Positions 5,502-28,937 of a stretch of 30,331 bases of DNA are shown piece by piece. A program made the position numbers and the translations under genes. Origin of the DNA: a virus. Below the pieces are notes generated by a model. That model was given only the letters and a program-made list of their open reading frames with translations, had not been told where the DNA came from and ran no database searches. The stretch is from positions 1 through 30,331 of the IMG/VR virus record IMGVR_UViG_3300020201_000077. One strand, written 5' to 3'. The stretch's first letter is position 1. Every line of letters starts with the position of its first letter.

Positions 5502-5510
5502 TTATCCACA
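5502..5510 (+). promoter_or_regulatory. Perfect DnaA box
   Basis: TTATCCACA, the consensus high-affinity DnaA 9-mer, lies in the intergenic region just upstream of the -10 for the 5538 gene. It overlaps the expected -35 position, so DnaA or its phage-induced titration could influence that promoter. It is one of three intergenic copies in the window. Confidence 0.45.
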
Positions 5511-5537: not shown

Positions 5538-6176
5538 ATGCTAGACAATAAACAACTTAAAAAAATAGCACGACTCGCCAAAATAGCCGACAAAGGTGAA
5601 GTTGCCATAATTGAAGAATTAGATTCAATAGACGAGCAATTAGAGGCACTACAGGGCAAGGTAGAGAGTGCTCTATCTATCTCAAGCAAAGCAAAGAATG
5701 GCATACAAGGGGTACAGGGGGTGCAAGGAAAGAATGGAGAAAAAGGTAAAGATGGAGTAAACGGAAAGAATGGAGAAAACGGGGAAGATGGGCTTAACGG
5801 TGTGAATGGCGTTAACGGTGCTAATGGAAAAGCAGGTAAAGATGGAAAGAATGGCAGGTCTCCTCTGATAGGCTGGGGTGCTCATCCATTACGAGTAGAA
5901 CAAGCAGGTGTTATGAAAACAAAGGTTGCAAGAACTTTAAACTTTAAAGGTACAGGGGTTCCCACGATTACTCAAAATGCGAACGGAACAACAGAGCTAA
6001 ACTTCGCAGGCGGTACTGGGTTCAGTGGGGAATTACTTGATTCTACCTCTACAGCGATTGCGGTGGTTTTAAATGGGTTAATTATCAGCACTTACTTTAC
6101 TCCAGCAGCAGGTTTCCTATTACAAGAAGATGGATTTTTCATATTACAAGAAAATGGAGACAAAATTATATTATAA
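5538..6176 (+). CDS. Collagen-repeat tail fibre protein
   Basis: 212 residues. Residues 1-52 are a charged helix likely to trimerise. Residues 55-108 are 18 uninterrupted Gly-X-Y triplets (GKN, GEK, GKD, GVN), a collagen-like triple-helix stalk. Residues 109-165 form a beta-rich head and the C-terminus carries a short repeated motif, LLQEDGFFILQENGDKIIL. Helix, collagen stalk and small beta tip are typical of trimeric phage fibres that reach out to the host surface. It has its own near-leaderless promoter and precedes two more fibre-type genes. Confidence 0.8.
   Translation: MLDNKQLKKIARLAKIADKGEVAIIEELDSIDEQLEALQGKVESALSISSKAKNGIQGVQGVQGKNGEKGKDGVNGKNGENGEDGLNGVNGVNGANGKAGKDGKNGRSPLIGWGAHPLRVEQAGVMKTKVARTLNFKGTGVPTITQNANGTTELNFAGGTGFSGELLDSTSTAIAVVLNGLIISTYFTPAAGFLLQEDGFFILQENGDKIIL
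5700..5861 (+). repeat. Collagen-like 9-bp coding repeat
   Basis: Eighteen consecutive nine-base units, each encoding Gly-X-Y. Early units are near-identical (GGGGTACAG then GGGGTGCAA), which leaves room for length variation by slippage. Confidence 0.8.
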
Positions 6177-11546: not shown

Positions 11547-11897
11547 ATGGAAATAACACTTAAGGGAAATCCGCAATCAACTAACCACATTTATAAGTCC
11601 GTTTGTCGTGGGAAATTTGCTTCAGTTTATATGTCACAGCCAGGAAAAACCCTAAAAGAGGATTATGGGTGGCAAATCAAGTCACAGTACAAGGGTAAAC
11701 CTCTCACAGGAAGCGTAGATTTGAGGCTAGAGCTGTTTTTTGGGGATAAGAGGATAAGAGACATAGATAATTATAACAAGCTTGTCCTAGACGCTTGTAG
11801 TGGCTTGCTTTGGATTGATGACAGCCAAATCGAAAGCCTTTTAATAATCAAAAACATAGATGTTAAAAACCCAAGAGTAGAGCTTGTAATAAATTAG
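11547..11897 (+). CDS. rusA: RusA-family Holliday junction resolvase
   Basis: 116 residues, close to the 120 of E. coli RusA. The family cuts four-way DNA junctions as a dimer and here would resolve recombination or replication intermediates before packaging. The catalytic block is present: RDIDNYNKLVLDA gives D72, D74 and K78, and WIDDSQ gives D91/D92, matching RusA D70, D72, K76 and D91. It starts the replication/recombination block and has its own leaderless promoter. The DNA right after its stop contains a DnaA box. Confidence 0.9.
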   Translation: MEITLKGNPQSTNHIYKSVCRGKFASVYMSQPGKTLKEDYGWQIKSQYKGKPLTGSVDLRLELFFGDKRIRDIDNYNKLVLDACSGLLWIDDSQIESLLIIKNIDVKNPRVELVIN

Positions 11898-11906
11898 TTA
11901 TCCACA
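11898..11906 (+). promoter_or_regulatory. Perfect DnaA box upstream of the initiator gene
   Basis: TTATCCACA, three bases after the rusA stop and about 140 bases before the initiator ATG. With the iterons at 12100-12424 it suggests a replication start region. Confidence 0.55.
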
Positions 11907-11950: not shown

Positions 11951-12046
11951 ATGTTTCAAAGCCTTTGTAATATTAAAAATTTAAACGTCCCTACGAGTTC
12001 AACAAAGGCTCTCGCGGGGACTTTTGAGTTTTTAATTTATGGCTAA
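11951..12046 (+). CDS. Leader peptide overlapping the initiator start
   Basis: 31 codons from an ATG placed exactly at the expected transcription start. The stop at 12044-046 lies just inside the next gene (ATG 12039), so the two frames overlap by eight bases. The ORF spans a pseudoknot-forming segment, so ribosomes reading it would open that structure. The peptide itself resembles nothing known. The layout recalls leader peptides that control plasmid initiator genes; translation is not proven. Confidence 0.4.
   Translation: MFQSLCNIKNLNVPTSSTKALAGTFEFLIYG
11960..12021 (+). ncRNA. Predicted H-type pseudoknot in the initiator leader
   Basis: A hairpin formed by GTCCC (11987-991) with GGGAC (12017-021) and CGAG (11994-997) with CTCG (12011-014) has a 13-base loop. 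The loop bases ACAAAGGCT (12002-010) are an exact complement of AGCCTTTGT (11960-968), giving a 9-bp second helix that crosses the first. The structure ends 17 bases before the initiator ATG and is followed by TTTTGAGTTTTT. It could gate translation or terminate transcription. No catalogued RNA family is recognised. Confidence 0.5.
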
Positions 12047-12737
12047 TCCACAGAAAGAAAATGGATTTACGGCGATAGCCAATGAGATTTTAGAACAGTT
12101 AGTAAAGACACCTTTACTGGGTGCAGAGTTCCAAATACTATTGTTTATACTTAGAAAAACTTATGGCTATCACAAAAAACAAGACCGCATATCCTTTACT
12201 CAGTTTGAGAAAGGTACAGGTATTTCTAGGCAAACTATCAACAAAACCATTAAAAACCTCATTACAAAGGGAATGATAGTAAAGATATATTTACCAGAAG
12301 GCAATATCGGCTATACCTTTATAAAAGACCATGAAAAGTGGGTAGTAAAGACGCATTTACTAGTAAAGGGTAAGTGGTCTACTAGTAAAGACGTATTGAC
12401 CAAAACTAGTAAAGACGTATTGACACACAAAAGAAAGAAAGAAATAACAAAAGATATTGTCGCAAGCGACATTCCATTTTCTTTAAAGGAAGAAATTAAA
12501 AAACTAGAAGATAACCCTAGAAGGGACTTAAATATAGTCGCTTTATATTTGGACCACAGAAAACCCGACCTACAGAATACTGCACAATATGAGAAAGCAC
12601 TCAAACGACACCTAAAACCAGCTGGAGAATTAAAACCATTTACAGATAATCAGATATTAAAAGCCCTTGATTATGCTAAAAAAGAGTACAAAGATGTATA
12701 CACATTAGAAACATTGTTAAAGATACTAGTAAAATAA
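12039..12737 (+). CDS. Replication initiator, phage replication protein O family
   Basis: 232 residues. The N-terminal 100 residues are the winged-helix origin-binding domain of the family (NGFTAIANEILEQLVKTPL, AEFQILLFILRKTYGYHKK), with the recognition helix in EKGTGISRQTINKTIKNL. The middle (about 115-140) is a Lys/Ser/Thr linker encoded by the iterons. The C-terminal 60 residues are helical and could recruit host helicase machinery. No helicase, loader or polymerase is encoded in the window, so replication must use host enzymes. As in lambda O, the probable origin lies inside the gene. Confidence 0.85.
   Translation: MANPQKENGFTAIANEILEQLVKTPLLGAEFQILLFILRKTYGYHKKQDRISFTQFEKGTGISRQTINKTIKNLITKGMIVKIYLPEGNIGYTFIKDHEKWVVKTHLLVKGKWSTSKDVLTKTSKDVLTHKRKKEITKDIVASDIPFSLKEEIKKLEDNPRRDLNIVALYLDHRKPDLQNTAQYEKALKRHLKPAGELKPFTDNQILKALDYAKKEYKDVYTLETLLKILVK
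12100..12424 (+). repeat. Iteron array, probable phage replication origin
   Basis: Full 18-base copies of TAGTAAAGACGTATTGAC type occur at 12383-400 and 12407-424 (identical) and 12343-360 (TAGTAAAGACGCATTTAC), with diverged copies at 12100-117 and 12277-294 and a partial at 12361-368. Several have dyad symmetry, GTAAA-N6-TTTAC, as expected for an initiator dimer. The tight cluster 12343-12424 has spacings of 18, 22 and 24. All lie inside the gene for the presumed binding protein, as in lambda. Confidence 0.75.
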
Positions 12738-13125: not shown

Positions 13126-13134
13126 GTTAATAGT

Positions 13135-13143
13135 TATCCACAG
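13135..13143 (+). promoter_or_regulatory. Perfect DnaA box before a strong promoter
   Basis: TTATCCACA ends ten bases before the TTGACA at 13154. Two copies of AAAGGCGAC (13145-153 and 13163-171) flank and enter the promoter and may be a regulator site. Confidence 0.5.
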
Positions 13144-13588: not shown

Positions 13589-13661
13589 AGAAAATAGAGA
13601 CGCATTTTTTATCGGAGTATTCCTAGTTGTCGGACTAGGACTAGCACTTTTGTTTGGATAA
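13575..13661 (+). CDS. 28-residue membrane peptide
   Basis: ATG to TAA, overlapping the previous gene by 14 bases and ending one base before the ERF gene. A short charged N-terminus (MRTNKENRD) is followed by one membrane span (FFIGVFLVVGLGLALLFG). The clean topology and exact fit between genes support it. Confidence 0.5.
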   Translation: MRTNKENRDAFFIGVFLVVGLGLALLFG

Positions 13662-13662
13662 T

Positions 13663-14127
13663 ATGAAAAATATATACAAAGCACTCGCAAGGTTCCAACA
13701 AGCTGTCCCAGTAATCCACAAAGACACTCAAGGATTTAATTATAGCTATGCAGACTTACCAGCTATTTTTGGAATCATAAATCCATTGCTTGCCGAGAAT
13801 GGACTAGGGTTTTACCAAGCGGTAAACGACAACAAGATAAAAACAGTATTGTTCCACATAGAAAGTGGAGAAACTATAGAAAGTGAAACCAACATTCCTC
13901 AAGGAGTAGTCCTAAACAAGATGAACGACTTTCAGGTATTGGGTTCGTCAATTACTTACTTGAGACGCTACGCCCTCTCCTCAATGCTTGGGCTAGTTAC
14001 AGACAAAGACACTGACGCAAGCGGTGAACAAGCACCAAAGGTCGGCAAGACAGCAGCCTACAACGCCAAGAACAAAGCAGACCAAGAAAATGGTGTAGAC
14101 CCATTATCAGATGACTTAGACCTATAA
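13663..14127 (+). CDS. erf: ERF-family single-strand annealing protein
   Basis: 154 residues from the ATG at 13663. ERF proteins bind single-stranded DNA and anneal complementary strands in phage recombination. Family signatures are clear: KALARFQQAVPVIHKDTQ, YADLPAIFGIINPLLAENGL and the VLGSSITYLRRYALSSMLGL block, ending near a conserved DKDTDA. The C-terminus is a charged linker with an acidic tip (PLSDDLDL). With rusA and the SSB-like gene next door it forms a recombination set that could also circularise the genome. Confidence 0.92.
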   Translation: MKNIYKALARFQQAVPVIHKDTQGFNYSYADLPAIFGIINPLLAENGLGFYQAVNDNKIKTVLFHIESGETIESETNIPQGVVLNKMNDFQVLGSSITYLRRYALSSMLGLVTDKDTDASGEQAPKVGKTAAYNAKNKADQENGVDPLSDDLDL

Positions 14128-14399: not shown

Positions 14400-14762
14400 A
14401 TGCCCCCAGGTAAAGAAAAAACCGAAGAAAGCACCATTCACCCCAAACAGCGAACTGAACTCCAGAATAGGGCAATTCACCTTTACCTAACCCAAGTGGC
14501 TCATGAACTACAAAATCAGGGTCAAACAATGCAAGACGTAGTAAAGAAAATTAACAAGGTCGAAATTAAACCAACAATGCACAACTTGAAAGAACTTGTT
14601 TGGAGAGAAATTCAAAAAGTTCACCTGGGAAAAGAAAGTACAACATTCTTAACCAAGCACGAAGTCACCGAAATATACGACATCATGTCCATGTGGCTAT
14701 CCAAGAATTTTGAAATATCACTTCCCTTCCCAGATAGTAAAGAAGAAGCACCATTAAAATGA
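14400..14762 (+). CDS. Conserved phage protein of the recombination block
   Basis: 120 residues. Blocks typical of a phage family are visible: KQRTELQNRAIHLYLTQVAH, KELVWREIQKVHLGKESTTF and VTEIYDIMSMWLSKNF ending LPFP. The QNRxxHLY pattern resembles NinB-type recombination accessory proteins, which bind single-stranded DNA, but I cannot assign it firmly. The TGA stop overlaps the next start (ATGA), so translation is coupled. Confidence 0.6.
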   Translation: MPPGKEKTEESTIHPKQRTELQNRAIHLYLTQVAHELQNQGQTMQDVVKKINKVEIKPTMHNLKELVWREIQKVHLGKESTTFLTKHEVTEIYDIMSMWLSKNFEISLPFPDSKEEAPLK

Positions 14763-15022
14763 CAATCCTAGACTATTTAACAGCACAGCCACAGGCAAGA
14801 GAAAGAGCAAACAAGAATCGGTGCATAGGAAACTTAATCCAAATGAAATACTGGAAACTTGCAGAAGTAGACAAGGCTATGCTCGCAGACATTGTCGGTC
14901 AAGTTTTAACAATGGATAGGCAGTGGAGAAAGTGCCTAGAAGATAATCCCGAACTCAGGGGCAGTGACTACAAAGACAAAGACACATTATCGGAAGCTAA
15001 GAAAAAAGAACTCGGATATTAA
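14759..15022 (+). CDS. Hypothetical protein
   Basis: 87 residues, start overlapping the previous stop. Helical, basic N-terminal half (QARERANKNRCIGNLIQMKY) and a charged C-terminus. No motif identified. Part of the run of small early genes. Confidence 0.6.
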   Translation: MTILDYLTAQPQARERANKNRCIGNLIQMKYWKLAEVDKAMLADIVGQVLTMDRQWRKCLEDNPELRGSDYKDKDTLSEAKKKELGY

Positions 15023-15905: not shown

Positions 15906-16412
15906 ATGACAAAATGCAATTATTGTAAAGAAGAACATCAATTAAAAAACACAGGTTGCTACAACTCTGGCTACTACAACTCTGGCTACCGCAACTCTGG
16001 CAGCTACAACTCTGGCTACTACAACTCTGGCTGGTTTAATACTGATGAGCCAACGATGCGTTTCTTTAACAAGGAAAGCAGTATCAAGTATTCAGATTTT
16101 AATGTTCAAGTGTACCCAGACTTAAAAATTTGTGATTGGGTAGAACTAAACGCCTTACCAATAGACGAGCAAACAGAAAGTGCCAAGCAGATGGGTGGAC
16201 TTCTTAAAACTCTAACCTATAAAGAAGCTTGGGCTGAGTACTGGAATCGTGCAAGTGATAGTGATAAGAAATGGTTTCAAGAATTGCCGAACTTTGACGA
16301 AAAGATTTGGGAAGAAATAACGGGTATTAAACTAAACGCACCGCTTTCTCTTTCTGGTAAAGAAGTATCAGTAACTATAGATGGTAAAACTTACAAAGCC
16401 ATTATTAACTAA
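15906..16412 (+). CDS. Pentapeptide-like repeat protein
   Basis: 168 residues. An N-terminal CNYC pair is followed by five or more YNSGY-type repeats (residues 17-43: NTGCYNSGYYNSGYRNSG and on), then FNTDEPTMRFFNKES and a 110-residue globular part. Asn-Ser-Gly pentads form a right-handed beta helix in related proteins. Some bacterial pentapeptide proteins mimic DNA, but this stretch is short and no such role is shown. The type is frequent in phage accessory regions. Confidence 0.65.
   Translation: MTKCNYCKEEHQLKNTGCYNSGYYNSGYRNSGSYNSGYYNSGWFNTDEPTMRFFNKESSIKYSDFNVQVYPDLKICDWVELNALPIDEQTESAKQMGGLLKTLTYKEAWAEYWNRASDSDKKWFQELPNFDEKIWEEITGIKLNAPLSLSGKEVSVTIDGKTYKAIIN
15959..16033 (+). repeat. 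15-bp tandem repeat inside the pentapeptide gene
   Basis: About five units of the form TACAACTCTGGCTAC, near-identical at DNA level, encoding YNSGY. Recent expansion or slippage is likely. There are no spacers, so this is not a CRISPR array. Confidence 0.75.
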
Positions 16413-18607: not shown

Positions 18608-18796
18608 ATGAGACAAGAACCAAAGAAAAGGGATAAATGTTATTACTGTGAGAAATGTATTTTTAGCACTCAACCCAAGCACAGAATAAAAAGAGAGTAC
18701 GCTAATCATTATAAAGACCAGTTCGCTCACATAGGTTGTAACAAAGCTAATAGTATTGCTTTGCAAATAAAAAAATATGAAAATCATACACAATAA
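18608..18796 (+). CDS. Small Cys/His protein, probable zinc binder
   Basis: 62 residues. CYYCEKC at 11-17 and H37/H42 with C45 (FAHIGCNKANS) give a treble-clef-like ligand set resembling that of the 10834 protein. It is basic throughout. The last 20 bases overlap the GroEL gene. Possibly nucleic-acid binding; function unknown. Confidence 0.55.
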   Translation: MRQEPKKRDKCYYCEKCIFSTQPKHRIKREYANHYKDQFAHIGCNKANSIALQIKKYENHTQ

Positions 18797-20099
18797 TCCT
18801 AAGGAAGTTATCATGAACGCGGTGGATAAGTATTTAGACTTTATAGCCCCTACTTATGGACCAGCAGGTAAAACTATCTTAATAGGCTCAGACGGAGTAA
18901 AGGCAGTAGATGATGGAAAGATTGCCTCAGAACATTTTGAAGTAGAAGATGACTTTGAACAGGCGGTGATTGAGTACATAAAAGATACTACTCAAAAGAC
19001 TAACGAAAGAATCCAAGACGGTACAACTACATCAGCAATACTTATGTCCGCTCTTATCAAAGAGATTTTTAATACTAAAGGGCACAACAAAACAAATATT
19101 GTTGAAGTAAAGAAAGGATTGCAAGAAGCAAAAGCCTATATAATAAAGAAAGCTAAAACTGTAACAGGCAAAAAAGACCTCCAAGAGATCGCGTACAGTG
19201 CATACAATAACAAAGAAGTTGCAAAGATAATAGCAGAAGTAGTCTTTCAAGTAGGAGTAAATGGAATCATTCACATAGAGGATGGAGCAGAAATGACCAC
19301 TAGCTATGAACTAGCAGCAGGATTTGAAATACCAACAGGCTATGTGTCTACCCACTTAATCAATCGTGGGGATAGTGTATTTCTAGATAAACCCTATGTC
19401 ATCATAGTAAATGACGCACTTAACTCTATCCAACAGGTAATGCCTATCCTTGAGCTGGTGATGAAGTCTAACAAAAAAGAGTTTGTAATCATGGCGGACT
19501 CATTCGGAGACCAAGTACTAAGCTTAATCGCTGTGAACAAAGTCAATGGAGTATTTAAACCTTTATTGGTAAACAACGCAGGCTTTGGAGATGAGAAGTA
19601 TGAAACCTTAAAGAAAATATCAGAACTAACAGGAGCTAAGGTACACGACCTTAAACTAGGAGCTATAACAAAGGAAGACTTCGGGCAAGCTAAGTCAGTG
19701 AACGCTACAAAGAACACAACGTCTATTATAGGAAACAAAATCATAGAAGGTGGCAAATCTGCTGTTATTAAAGTAGGAGCACCAACAAAGAACGAGCAGC
19801 AGACAATCAGAGAGAAGATAGAAGACGCTGTGGGTGCAACTAAGATAGCACTATCATCAAAGTATGGTATAATAACAGGAGGAGGTATAACGTATAAGAA
19901 CATAAAAACATCGTCACCAATTTTAAACAAGGCACTAAAGAAACCAAGAGAGATACTAGAATCCAATGGTAAAGAATTCCTAAAGGAAGTATACGACCCA
20001 GCAGAATCTCTTATTGCATCACTTGAAACAGCAGTAAGTATAGCTTGTGGATTAGCAGAGATAGGAGGCATCTCAGTAGTTAAAAGAATTAAAGAATGA
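18777..20099 (+). CDS. groEL: Phage chaperonin GroEL (Hsp60), shortened
   Basis: 440 residues against about 548 in E. coli. GroEL rings fold proteins in an ATP-driven cycle. ATP-site motifs are kept: YGPAG (27-31), DGTTT (81-85), IEDAVGATK around D350 (GroEL D398) and GGG (368-370). The apical domain is recognisable (GYVSTHLINR, NNAGFGDEKYETLKKISELTGAKV, GQAKSV). Two in-frame losses are seen: about 40 residues after TTSIIGN, where GroEL has a long apical helix pair, and about 30 near the C-terminus where GroEL has its NAATEEYG segment. The Gly-Met tail is absent. It overlaps the upstream gene by 20 bases and abuts the SET gene. It probably folds capsid or tail proteins together with the GroES at 22651. 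Confidence 0.93.
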   Translation: MKIIHNNPKEVIMNAVDKYLDFIAPTYGPAGKTILIGSDGVKAVDDGKIASEHFEVEDDFEQAVIEYIKDTTQKTNERIQDGTTTSAILMSALIKEIFNTKGHNKTNIVEVKKGLQEAKAYIIKKAKTVTGKKDLQEIAYSAYNNKEVAKIIAEVVFQVGVNGIIHIEDGAEMTTSYELAAGFEIPTGYVSTHLINRGDSVFLDKPYVIIVNDALNSIQQVMPILELVMKSNKKEFVIMADSFGDQVLSLIAVNKVNGVFKPLLVNNAGFGDEKYETLKKISELTGAKVHDLKLGAITKEDFGQAKSVNATKNTTSIIGNKIIEGGKSAVIKVGAPTKNEQQTIREKIEDAVGATKIALSSKYGIITGGGITYKNIKTSSPILNKALKKPREILESNGKEFLKEVYDPAESLIASLETAVSIACGLAEIGGISVVKRIKE

Positions 20100-20100
20100 T

Positions 20101-20553
20101 ATGGAAGAAGAAACTGATATAGAAAATATAAACTATATAAATAGTACAGTATGGGCAACCCTGAAGAAATCTTCTATTCATGGTATAGGGGTATTTGCTA
20201 TAAGAGACATTCCTAAAGGGACTAAGTTATCAGACAACAACGTCACAGAACCTATTAATTTAAAACACTTTACATTTAATAAAAAACAATTACGTCTAAT
20301 AAGACCAGAAATACTTAATCTTATTTTAGACAGAACTATTTTCCCAAAAGGAATTGAAGAAGTTACTATTGTAAGCCCTAACAGTAATTATACGTTGACA
20401 GCTTTTTGTAATCACTCAAGCGAATCAAACTGTGACTCAATATATGCTATAAAGGACATAAAACAAGACGAAGAAATACTAACAGATTTTAATAGTTTTT
20501 ATCCTTTAGATGAATTAACGCTTAATCACATGGGGTTTTTAATAAAGACATAA
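20101..20553 (+). CDS. SET-domain protein (possible lysine methyltransferase)
   Basis: 150 residues, one base after groEL. Core SET motifs are present: HGIGVFAIRDIPKGTKL (28-43), which binds S-adenosylmethionine, and FCNHSSESNC (102-111), the NHS motif, followed by AIKDIKQDEEILTDF (116-130). SET enzymes methylate protein lysines. The Tyr usual in the last motif (GEELTxDY) is Phe130 here, so activity may be altered, with Tyr134 as a substitute. The target is unknown; placement between groEL and terminase suggests a phage chaperone or packaging protein, or a host factor. Confidence 0.8.
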   Translation: MEEETDIENINYINSTVWATLKKSSIHGIGVFAIRDIPKGTKLSDNNVTEPINLKHFTFNKKQLRLIRPEILNLILDRTIFPKGIEEVTIVSPNSNYTLTAFCNHSSESNCDSIYAIKDIKQDEEILTDFNSFYPLDELTLNHMGFLIKT

Positions 20554-22650: not shown

Positions 22651-22896
22651 ATGAAATTCACGCCATTAAACAACCGAATACTTGTAAAACCAGACGTTGT
22701 ACCAAATGAGACAAAGAGTGGTATCCTGCTTGGTAATGTAAGCGAGAAGCCAGCAACAGGAACAGTAATAGTTGGAGGACAGCTTGTAAAGGAGGGTGAC
22801 AGCATCCTTTTTTCTAAGTTTGGGTTTGATGAAACAGAGATAGACAAACAAATTTATTATGTGGTCGCAGAACATAACGTGTTAGGAATAAACTAA
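22651..22896 (+). CDS. groES: Phage co-chaperonin GroES
   Basis: 81 residues, shorter than the host's roughly 97. GroES forms a seven-subunit lid on GroEL. The N-terminal strand FTPLNNRILVKP is typical, the mobile loop (17-33) keeps a hydrophobic tripeptide (GILL at 24-27) matching the IVL that docks on the apical domain, and the C-terminal half (GTVIVGG, LVKEGDSILFSKFG, YYVVAEHNVLGI) matches the barrel. The roof loop is shortened. It lies 2.5 kb from groEL, separated by terminase genes, and overlaps the portal start by one base, so it is made together with head proteins. Confidence 0.9.
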   Translation: MKFTPLNNRILVKPDVVPNETKSGILLGNVSEKPATGTVIVGGQLVKEGDSILFSKFGFDETEIDKQIYYVVAEHNVLGIN

Positions 22897-24704
22897 TGGA
22901 AGACCAAGACAAAGACATTTTCAATTACATAGTGGCTCAAGAAGCTAACTATAAACAACCAATACCAATAAATGATGTATGGAATTGGTCAATGAAAGAC
23001 CACATCAAGACCAGTGACCTATACTTGAACTCACAGTTACTAACAGGCAAGAGTGATTTTAAGCCTGTAAAGAACATTACACGCCCTATTCTTAATCTTC
23101 AGCATAGAACAGAAGACTTGGAACTAAAGGATGTCCAAATCTATGTGGATAGCCCTGAGTTATATCACCTCTCCTTTCTTGTTAAGAAATACCACGATGA
23201 CATCTTCGTTCAAGAAAATGACCTTGATACATACTTTGATGAACTCAATGTCTCTAGGATAGACTTCGGGGGTGGACTATCAAAGAAAATGAGCAAAGCT
23301 AGACCAGAGCTAGTACCTTTGCAGTCTATTGCATTTTGTGACCAGACAGACATTCTTTCAGGTCCTATTGGTATCAGACATTATTTCTCACCAGACCAGT
23401 TAATGGATATGAAGAAAGTGGGCTGGGGTGATGAAAAGAATGGAGCAACCATAAGCGTAGAGGAACTGATTACATTATCTCGCTCAGAGAAGAAGAACGA
23501 CAACACCGATGGGCAAATAGCCAAGACTACAGGGCGGTACATTGAGATATTTGAAGTACATGGGAACCTGCCTAAAAGGTTTGCAGACCCCACAGATGAC
23601 TCAGGAGAATACGAAACCCAAATCTTTATAGTTGGTTTCTATCAAAAGAAAGGAAGTATGGATAAGCAAGGAGTCACACTATTTACAAAGGCAGAAAATA
23701 CAAGCCCATTCAAGTTTATTAAAAGAGACCCAGTGTATGGGCGAGCATTAGGCTTCGGAGGTGCAGAAGAACTGTTCGAGGCTCAAGTGTGGATAAACTA
23801 TGACATGATTCGTATGCAAGCTATGTTAGACGCTGCTTCGATAACAATCCTTAAAGCTATTGGTCCAAATAGTCAAAAGGTAGCAGGGCAAAAGCTAACA
23901 GACCTTGAAAACCTTGAAATATTAGATTTAGGAGAGGGTGGAGACTTGGGGCAAGTTGATACATTCCCAAGAAATATGCAGTTGTTTGATAACTCAGTCC
24001 AGCAATGGGAAGCACACGCACAACAAATGGGTGCAGCTAATGACGCTATTATGGGAAACAGCCCAGCATCAGGAACACCATTCAAGCTACAAGAGCTTGT
24101 TACATCAGAAGCACACGGACTGCACGAATACCGAAGAGGACAGTTTGCTAAGCACATCGAAGAAATATACAAAGACTGGATTGTCCCACATATCCAGAAG
24201 AAAATAACAGAAGGGTATAAATTCCTATCAGAGCTATCACTTGAGGAGTTGCAATATGTAGGAGAAATGCTCGCAAATAACGAAGCAAACAAAAGACTGA
24301 AAGACATGGTACTAGCAGGAGAAGAAGTTACACCAGATATTCAGAAAACTATGATGGAACTTATCATGTTGGACTTCAAGAAGAAAGGGAGTAAACACTT
24401 TATAGAGATACTCAAAGGAGAATTTAAGAAAGCAACATTGTCAGTGAAGGTATCAGTGAAAGGTAAGACAAAAGACTTAGCAGGAAGAACAGATAAGCTA
24501 GTCAATATCTTTAGAGAAATTATCGTTAATCCAGCAGTGCTAACAATCCCAGCAATCGCTAAGATATTCAACGACATCCTAGAGTCATCAGGACTAGACC
24601 CAGCAGACTTCTCAGGGATTACCAAAGAGCAATTACAAGCAACACAGCCTCAGCCAACTGAGCAACCTGTAACACAAAATACCGATGGACAAGTCAGCAT
24701 TTAA
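22896..24704 (+). CDS. Portal protein
   Basis: 602 residues, in portal size range, placed after terminase and before scaffold. Portals form a 12-subunit ring through which DNA passes. Features that fit are the N-terminal SDLYLNSQLLTGKSDF stretch, a beta-rich wing with EVHGNLP and QIFIVGFYQK, long C-terminal helices (YRRGQFAKHIEEIYKDWIVP; LQYVGEMLANNEANKRLKDM) and a Pro/Gln-rich tail. The call depends largely on position and architecture. The groES stop and this start share a base. Confidence 0.82.
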   Translation: MEDQDKDIFNYIVAQEANYKQPIPINDVWNWSMKDHIKTSDLYLNSQLLTGKSDFKPVKNITRPILNLQHRTEDLELKDVQIYVDSPELYHLSFLVKKYHDDIFVQENDLDTYFDELNVSRIDFGGGLSKKMSKARPELVPLQSIAFCDQTDILSGPIGIRHYFSPDQLMDMKKVGWGDEKNGATISVEELITLSRSEKKNDNTDGQIAKTTGRYIEIFEVHGNLPKRFADPTDDSGEYETQIFIVGFYQKKGSMDKQGVTLFTKAENTSPFKFIKRDPVYGRALGFGGAEELFEAQVWINYDMIRMQAMLDAASITILKAIGPNSQKVAGQKLTDLENLEILDLGEGGDLGQVDTFPRNMQLFDNSVQQWEAHAQQMGAANDAIMGNSPASGTPFKLQELVTSEAHGLHEYRRGQFAKHIEEIYKDWIVPHIQKKITEGYKFLSELSLEELQYVGEMLANNEANKRLKDMVLAGEEVTPDIQKTMMELIMLDFKKKGSKHFIEILKGEFKKATLSVKVSVKGKTKDLAGRTDKLVNIFREIIVNPAVLTIPAIAKIFNDILESSGLDPADFSGITKEQLQATQPQPTEQPVTQNTDGQVSI

Positions 24705-25610: not shown

Positions 25611-25639
25611 TTGCTTTATGAAGCGGTATGGGATATAAT
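25611..25639 (+). promoter_or_regulatory. Leaderless promoter of the HNH gene
   Basis: TTGCTT, a 17-base spacer and a perfect TATAAT (25634-639). The ATG at 25646 follows after six bases. An 8-bp AT-rich hairpin (25555-562 with 25569-576) lies upstream. This lets the endonuclease be made apart from capsid transcription. Confidence 0.7.
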
Positions 25640-25645
25640 TATCTT

Positions 25646-26278
25646 ATGCCAAAAGGAATTTATCTTCACAAACCAGAAAACTATCCACCATCTCGCAAAG
25701 GCTCTAAGCTCTCAAAAGAACATTTAGAAGCCTTGAGAGTCGCAAACTTAGGGAATAAACATTCTCTAGGGAAAAAGGATTCAGAGGAAACTCGAAGACT
25801 TAAAAGCGTAAACTCAGCAAGACATTGGCTAGGTAAAAAAAGACCTTTAGTGTCTAACGAGACTAAGGACAAGATGAGTAAGTCTCTGAAAGGTCACAAG
25901 GTTTCTGAATACACACGACAACGAGTGAGCAGTCTTTCAAAAGGTAAGTTTGGGAGACAGCATCATTGTTGGGTAGAAGATAAAAAAAGACCGCTCCAGA
26001 AAGCAATCCGTGAAATCTTTAAGTATGTAGAATGGAGAAAGACCATATTCACAAGAGATAATTATACTTGCGTGTTATGTGGGACGACAGGATATGTAGA
26101 AGCAGACCATTGCCCGACTCGTTTTGTGGATATATTGAAACAGAATAAGATTGAAACTATAGACGAAGCAATAAAATGCGAACAACTATGGGATACAGGA
26201 AATGGAAGAACTTTATGCAAACCTTGCCATCTTAAGACTATTACTTGGGGACGAAAACCTAGATTGCAAAAGAAATAA
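25646..26278 (+). CDS. HNH homing endonuclease beside the capsid intron
   Basis: 210 residues from the ATG at 25646, chosen because it lies one expected step after the -10; an upstream ATG at 25628 is within the promoter. Residues 20-105 hold NUMOD3-type DNA-binding repeats (SKLSKEHLEALRVANLGNKH, SNETKDKMSKSLKGHK). The HNH zinc finger follows: C142/C145, D154-H155, N186 and C191/C194/H195. It cuts one DNA site to start gene conversion. It ends eight bases before the capsid ATG, outside the intron, rather than inside as in most mobile introns. Confidence 0.9.
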   Translation: MPKGIYLHKPENYPPSRKGSKLSKEHLEALRVANLGNKHSLGKKDSEETRRLKSVNSARHWLGKKRPLVSNETKDKMSKSLKGHKVSEYTRQRVSSLSKGKFGRQHHCWVEDKKRPLQKAIREIFKYVEWRKTIFTRDNYTCVLCGTTGYVEADHCPTRFVDILKQNKIETIDEAIKCEQLWDTGNGRTLCKPCHLKTITWGRKPRLQKK

Positions 26279-28514: not shown

Positions 28515-28937
28515 ATGAAAGGAAAAAAAGGATTTCAAAAAGGACATGGGTGCTTCTGGTCAGAAGAAACAAAGCTGGCATTTTCAATGAAGACAAAAGG
28601 GAAAGTCTTATCAGAAGAACACAAGAAGAATATTGCAGAAGGCAACAAAGACAACAAGTCTGGTTTAATAAATGGTGAGAAAACAAGATTTGGAAACTAC
28701 GGAAGAGTAGGACATAGCTGGACTGGCACAAAGAATGAGTACAGAAGTCTTCACAGGTGGGTGGAAAACATGTTAGGCAAACCTTGTGAGTGTTCACAGT
28801 GTGGTGTAGTGACTTATGGAAGACAAATACATTGGGCTAACAAAAGCAAAGAGTACAAAAAGGTTCTATCTGATTGGGTTAGACTTTGTGCAAAGTGCCA
28901 TTATCAGTATGACTTTTATAAACTAACAACAAATTAA
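28515..28937 (+). CDS. Free-standing HNH endonuclease
   Basis: 140 residues. NUMOD3-like repeats (SEETKLAFSMKTKGKVLSEE) cover 16-45; the HNH zinc module follows with C93/C96 (CECSQC), H106 and C125/C128/H129 (LCAKCH). It sits between the glycosyltransferase and connector genes, tightly packed one base before the latter. It has its own -10 and probably spread as a selfish element without an intron. Confidence 0.85.
   Translation: MKGKKGFQKGHGCFWSEETKLAFSMKTKGKVLSEEHKKNIAEGNKDNKSGLINGEKTRFGNYGRVGHSWTGTKNEYRSLHRWVENMLGKPCECSQCGVVTYGRQIHWANKSKEYKKVLSDWVRLCAKCHYQYDFYKLTTN

Follow-up and report, generated by a model that had tools for sequence, protein, structure and literature searches.

A probable lambda-type replication origin inside the O-type initiator gene of an uncultivated phage, with candidate initiator sites in the DNA encoding the initiator's wing

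The DNA analysed here (the window) is the whole of IMG/VR virus record IMGVR_UViG_3300020201_000077, 30,331 bases long, and this study concerns a set of 18-base repeats within its predicted O-type replication initiator gene. No end overlap indicating circularity was found in the 30,331-base record, and megablast against the phage collection returned no near-identical phage. The initiator gene lies at 12039-12737 on the plus strand and encodes 232 amino acids, with a winged-helix domain in residues 1-101, a linker and a separate C-terminal domain (12480-12734, plus strand). Residues 6-82 match Pfam Phage_rep_O (1.4e-21) and the protein matches the PHROG replication initiation O-like group (3.4e-25). 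Profile matches comprised Phage_rep_O and generic helix-turn-helix-type models only, which places the gene with lambda O-type initiators carrying an N-terminal Phage_rep_O winged-helix domain and not with plasmid-type Rep genes. An AlphaFold2 model of residues 1-120, built from 31 sequences, is a winged helix with a mean predicted local distance difference test score of 82; its recognition helix spans residues 64-76 (12228-12266, plus strand, with the Thr66 codon at 12234-12236) and its wing strands are residues 80-84 and 90-94. Searched against the PDB, the N-terminal domain comes closest to winged helices of the MarR type and of AspA (best E 8.6e-4).

The initial annotation of this DNA described three full, two diverged and one partial copy of an 18-base element in the initiator gene, and a mismatch search bore this out. 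With up to three mismatches allowed, TAGTAAAGACGYATTKAC has six matches in the window, every one within 12100-12424, compared with 0.12 expected; that number was equalled in none of 100 shuffles of the window, and the 30.3 kb record holds no match outside the gene. The copies at 12343-12360, 12383-12400 and 12407-12424 are exact and those at 12100-12117 and 12277-12294 carry two mismatches each (all plus strand), while the sixth match is the dyad at 12345 read in reverse. A half copy, TAGTAAAGG, occupies 12361-12369 (plus strand), beginning 18 bases past 12343 and 22 ahead of 12383. The repeat score of the gene is 46, whereas 30 synonymous recodings scored no higher than 30 and 30 codon permutations no higher than 22. 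Dyad symmetry, described as partial, is clear in copy 12343 (by eye, TAGTAAA-6-TTTACTA, with 7-base arms), weaker in the other copies and borderline in the window consensus (p 0.055). The copies from 12343 to 12407 lie in the linker downstream of Trp101, as originally placed; those at 12100 and 12277 fall instead in the DNA-binding domain, encoding residues 21-27 and residues 80-86, the latter at the first wing strand. The proposed repeat of the linker peptide, TSKDVLT, likewise holds for 12383 and 12407, both translated in the same frame, and not for the other three copies, which share a different frame and read LVKTPLL (12100), IVKIYLP (12277) and VVKTHLL (12343). Between the DNA-binding and C-terminal domains the initiator gene accordingly contains its own initiator-specific array of four linker iterons, the second of them a half-site.

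Relatives were collected in two sets. For the first, searches gave 43, 80 and 80 loci, 203 in total; L002, with another winged helix-turn-helix (wHTH) domain, and the truncated L011 were excluded, leaving 202 genes with the window, of which 28 were dropped as more than 90% alike. To the resulting 174 non-redundant genes, window included, that of lambda was added as a control, and with five genes lacking the landmark, the conserved Trp that ends the wHTH domain (Trp101 in the window), 170 landmarked genes were available. The second set comprised 156 new loci, of which 72 were kept and 58 used after removal of seven without the landmark and seven without an array. The wing, ACAAAAG and residue-66 patterns described below were noticed in the first set and afterwards tested on the second. 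Arrays were sought as a 16-base word with at least three copies, at no more than four mismatches, in the 230 bases after the Trp codon, and were accepted if better than all 100 codon permutations of the same linker. As a positive control, this procedure recovered exactly the four annotated iterons of lambda, in the same place relative to the Trp.

Of the 170 landmarked genes, counting that of lambda, 145 have an array, positioned in the gene as in lambda. The words vary widely from phage to phage and the geometry is constant. The spacing triple 18-22-23 occurs in 21 of the 203 arrays of both sets, compared with 0.41 expected from shuffled spacings (maximum 5 in 2000). The window, with the half copy at 12361 counted, has 18-22-24, and because this is close to the 18-22-23 class the half copy was taken as a member of the array on the strength of its sequence and spacing. 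Dyad symmetry reached p ≤0.05 in 66 of the 145 array loci. More than one reading frame is used in 122 of the 145 arrays, which argues that it is the DNA that is kept. The closest relative, L001, points the same way; it has 76% identity across residues 1-160, a different C-terminal domain and the same repeat arrangement. Among codons for unchanged amino acids, 31 of 33 within the repeats are identical between the window and L001, compared with 47 of 79 outside them (Fisher p 1.3e-4), and synonymous codons were kept at 30 of 30 positions in gene bases 301-414 as against 38 of 70 in the N-domain outside the repeats. In L001 both arms of copy 12343 are intact and the 6-base centre alone is altered, together with two amino-acid changes; copy 12277 is letter-identical. 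The C-terminal domain, which has no Pfam or PHROG match of note and was assigned to no family, is a module exchanged among relatives, being replaced in L001 and 82% identical in L002. Since L002 shares this domain but has a different wHTH and no significant array (repeat score 20, within its nulls), it is the N-terminal domain that the repeats accompany.

Directly after the last repeat lies an A-rich tract (12425-12457, plus strand), a probable unwinding element, in which ACAAAAGA occurs at 12427-12434 and 12447-12454, two copies of a family word 20 apart. In the family, mean duplex energy goes from about -1.31 up to -1.13 kcal/mol per step past the last repeat, A rises to 57% with T at 16-19%, and A exceeds T in 135 of 139 loci. 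With loci whose gene ends too soon omitted (142 used for opening words and 138 for hairpins), ACAAAAGA was found in 72 of 142 post-array stretches, as against 24.0 by synonymous redraw and 5.1 by codon permutation. The shorter ACAAAAG occurs there 139 times in 76 loci, distributed over the three frames as 84, 25 and 30; its first copy stands at +1 to +7 in 56 of the 76 loci, and the spacing of pairs is 14-15 in 39 of 63. Its density, 0.96 per locus after the array, compares with 0.03 per 84 bases in the remainder of these genes (∼30-fold), and in the second set it was found in 29 of 56 loci (1.07 compared with 0.072). The tract is followed by an inverted repeat, TGTCGC-AA-GCGACA, at 12458-12471, with a hairpin score of 10. 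Scores of at least 10 occur at this place in 36 of 138 loci, in 8% of other gene windows and in 2.8% of permutations. These hairpins vary in sequence, and a CAAGC core is common to several (the window, L001, L003 and L120).

The relation between initiator and repeat word was examined by a covariation scan of all N-domain columns in which overall similarity was controlled and pairs more than 60% identical were omitted (10,191 of 10,296 pairs used). Residue 66, in the modelled recognition helix, was the top column, with a partial r of 0.189 with the word; the largest value in 200 word permutations was 0.127. Residue 85 came second, a signal that is partly trivial because its codon falls in the wing copy described below. 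In the 97 genes without a wing copy residue 66 again ranked first (0.174; largest permutation 0.108) and residue 85 second, and in the 47 genes with one A29, K69 and P86 led, followed by T66. Two word patterns were picked after inspection of the first set: His66 accompanies CC..GG words in 37 of 44 genes compared with 20 of 100 others, and Asn66 accompanies TC..GA words in 22 of 25 compared with 16 of 119 others. In the second set the corresponding counts were 14 of 18 (8 of 40 others) and 14 of 18 (7 of 40 others). This covariation is taken as indirect evidence that the recognition helix may bind the array words.

The N-domain coding DNA of each gene was searched only with the word learned from its own linker. 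A copy with at most three mismatches was found in 47 of the 145 genes, the window among them, where 0.7 were expected with words swapped between loci. All but two of these copies (45 of 47) sit within the wing or immediately ahead of it, 47-88 bases upstream of the Trp codon; L120 and L046 depart from this, and in L046 its word recurs with one mismatch at the gene position corresponding to 12100. Copies with at most three, at most one and no mismatches were observed in 47, 24 and 12 genes, as against 18.0, 3.0 and 0.5 under a synonymous-redraw null (maxima 26, 8 and 3 in 400 draws), so similar peptides account for part of the weaker resemblance and not for the exact copies. In 40 of the 47 genes the reading frame of one or more linker copies differs from that of the N-domain copy. 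The second set had N-domain copies in 34 of 58 arrays, a fraction that is no estimate of frequency, its queries A3 and A4 having been built mainly from wing-bearing genes; word swapping gave 1.2 and synonymous redraw 18.4. At no more than one mismatch there were 25 such genes compared with 3.0 expected, and 33 of the 34 copies lay at -95 to -40. Among genome contigs, by labels that the analysts assigned, the wing copy was present in none of 25 arrays from isolate-type records and in 8 of 33 from metagenome-assembled or single-cell records. The window's own wing copy has three mismatches to the linker consensus and does not exceed the synonymous null (p 0.13); its support comes from the family pattern and its identity in L001. 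The odds appear about even that a large branch of O-type phages, as yet uncultivated, has an origin extending back into the wing-coding DNA of the initiator. In the open-licence literature, as far as its texts were available, no account was found of repeats in the DNA coding for the wing, nor of a rule linking a residue of O proteins to the word.

Compared with lambda (NC_001416, ori-lambda 39034-39118), the window likewise has an O-type wHTH initiator with a separate C-terminal domain, four repeats that begin right after the domain-ending Trp (spacing 20-24-23 in lambda, 18-22-24 here) and an A-rich tract with ACAAAAG twice directly past the last repeat, which in lambda lies in the known AT-rich region. 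The window differs in its repeat word, in the half copy within its array, in the absence of a recognised P-like gene and in having copies in the DNA that encodes the DNA-binding domain, where the same test finds none in the lambda gene. Iteron plasmids (P1, R6K, RK2 and pSC101) also have initiator-bound repeats, as predicted for the window, beside an AT-rich opening region and with a DnaA-box-like site nearby; unlike theirs, the window's initiator matches Phage_rep_O and the repeats are inside its gene. Taken together, these comparisons suggest, with a probability of about 0.86, that the window carries a lambda-type replication origin inside the gene of its own initiator. The origin proposed in the initial annotation is thereby supported, as gene, place, order of parts and spacing match ori-lambda and the relatives keep the arrangement. 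The predicted origin itself is a further one of the lambda type, and what is new is the sites in wing-coding DNA.

In the accessible portions of the published accounts of lambda, binding of O dimers to the repeats puts the DNA under strain, after which the AT-rich tract opens and DnaB is delivered by P (PMC5043065, PMC6022878, PMC7466680). By analogy, dimers of the O-like protein would bind the dyad repeats of the window through the winged-helix domain, using residue 66 and its neighbours, and occupation of the linker sites at fixed spacing would produce a nucleoprotein complex. This complex would open the adjoining A-rich tract, and a host helicase or loader would then be recruited by the C-terminal domain. 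The wing copy at 12277, and perhaps that at 12100, may serve as extra upstream (distal) O sites, likely weaker and regulatory. This view follows the nearest precedent, the origins of P27 and 933W, which according to the available part of PMC7466680 have six iterons, the extra upstream ones binding weakly in vitro yet being needed for plasmid replication. There, as far as that part of the text goes, the extra copies come with 13 additional residues, whereas the window's extra copy is in the wing-coding DNA of a conserved domain.

Several observations weigh against a lambda-type origin with initiator sites in the wing. The initial annotation had proposed a cumulative GC-skew minimum near 12 kb; the detrended minimum is at 14793 and the maximum at 6077, the amplitude is no greater than that of block shuffles (p 0.36), and GC skew, rejected as an origin marker, gives no origin signal in the window. 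The measure is uninformative because the amplitude falls within the shuffles and nearly all genes run one way. No array was accepted in 25 of the 170 landmarked genes; seven of these had linkers of no more than 123 bases, and 18 had the full 230-base stretch examined. In AT content the post-array tract of the window does not stand out from this gene (rank 0.825, AT excess 0.01), and as it is not weaker than the rest of an AT-rich gene its assignment as the opening region rests on place and word. In L001 the 12100 copy has one half-site broken by a synonymous change. On independent well-supported branch pairs, 3.0 of 6 agree with the His66 rule and 0.1 oppose it (median p 0.25), and 5.2 of 7 agree with the Asn66 rule and 0.1 oppose it (median p 0.0625); the direction is as expected, but on small numbers that do not reach significance, and once corrected for the tree the residue-66 rule has little support, well-supported branches being few. 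Finally, Pfam and PHROG recognised no helicase or lambda P-like loader beside the O gene in the window, which makes this partner the least secure element of the proposed mechanism.

Three other explanations of the repeats were considered. They might arise because the protein linker is repetitive, with selection acting on the peptide and the DNA following. That the last two copies encode TSKDVLT twice, and that repeated linker peptides occur in several relatives (for example L004 and L026), would fit, but the window has the same word in two frames and most arrays of the family span more than one, synonymous codons are frozen within the repeats, and N-domain copies at no more than one mismatch go beyond what the protein dictates; we regard this as the least probable account and as highly improbable. 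Hardly less improbable is that the repeats are operators that let O repress or modulate its own transcription, with the origin elsewhere. Initiators often autoregulate, the repeats sit in a transcribed gene, and a wing copy could act as a roadblock; every copy, however, lies past the start codon. Moreover, the arrangement of parts and the A-rich tract correspond to those of ori-lambda, a proven origin by the accessible part of PMC5043065.

A more serious alternative, though still an unlikely one, is that the linker array is the origin and the wing and 12100 copies are functionless remnants left by duplication or gene conversion. Conversion would spread the same word, the broken 12100 copy of L001 is as expected of a remnant, and at least six changes of state in the wing-copy trait fall on well-supported branches, parsimony giving 22. 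Set against this are the position, which in nearly all loci is locked to the interval -47 to -88 relative to the Trp codon, the 12 perfect copies where synonymous codon choice would give 0.5, the recurrence of the pattern in the second set and the identity of the window's wing copy in L001. A lambda-type origin in the initiator gene is the preferred interpretation.

A perfect DnaA-box-like 9-mer of uncertain role lies upstream of the O gene at 11898-11906 (plus strand). Exact TTATCCACA occurs four times in the window (11898-11906, 13134-13142, 5502-5510 and 23788-23796) compared with 0.26 expected, and the upstream site recurs at -135 to -181 in L001, L003, L045 and L120. Across all loci TTATCCACA is hardly enriched near the O gene (0.031 vs 0.024 per kb); of the 11 exact sites in the interval from -1000 to +2000, however, 5 are located at -200 to -100. 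The sites at 11898-11906 and 13134-13142 flank the O gene and share TAGTTATCCACAG and, by eye, precede promoter-like stretches. The DnaA-box reading of TTATCCACA is kept as a lead only.

Directly downstream of the O gene, the reading frame at 12739-13125 matches nothing in Pfam, its PHROG matches are no better than E 0.047, and it was not classed as a P-like loader. Ten downstream genes of relatives were tested: four are DnaB-like (L016, L022, L046 and L038), one is Toprim/DnaB_C (L107) and one a DnaA/IstB-like AAA protein (L065). L046, with DnaB next to O, is among the nearest relatives. The O gene is flanked, as in lambdoid phages, by a recombination module with a RusA-like resolvase (11547-11897), an Erf-like annealing protein (13657-14127) and a weak NinB match (14400-14762). 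Repetitive pentapeptide-like genes are found near the replication region in L002 (9337-10365 and 10721-11413), L001 (10191-10967) and the window (15906-16412, matching Pentapeptide_2 at 9.1e-9); in those of L001 and L002 other frames are also open across the repeats. Elsewhere this 30 kb phage encodes a chaperonin pair, GroEL-like (18777-20099, 440 amino acids, short for GroEL) and GroES-like (22651-22896, 81 amino acids), a small SET-domain protein (20101-20553, Pfam 9.7e-9) and, in the structural region, HNH-like reading frames of homing-endonuclease type (25628-26278 and 28515-28937, by eye).

The lambda origin is a textbook case that has been studied in few coliphages. Here its plan is seen across relatives from many bacterial groups, with fixed spacing, words that change, an opening word in common and an initiator residue predictive of the word. 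This gives a rule for locating origins in uncultivated phages and makes a joint change of initiator and origin specificity directly testable. If the wing-coding sites are indeed part of the origin, the DNA coding for part of the reader would be one of the sites it reads, a rare case of a DNA-contacting protein segment encoded by its own binding site. Any change of word would then have to suit the array and the recognition helix as well as the peptide of the wing, and initiator and origin specificity would be tied as one self-consistent unit, which may explain why words differ between phages while the geometry stays.
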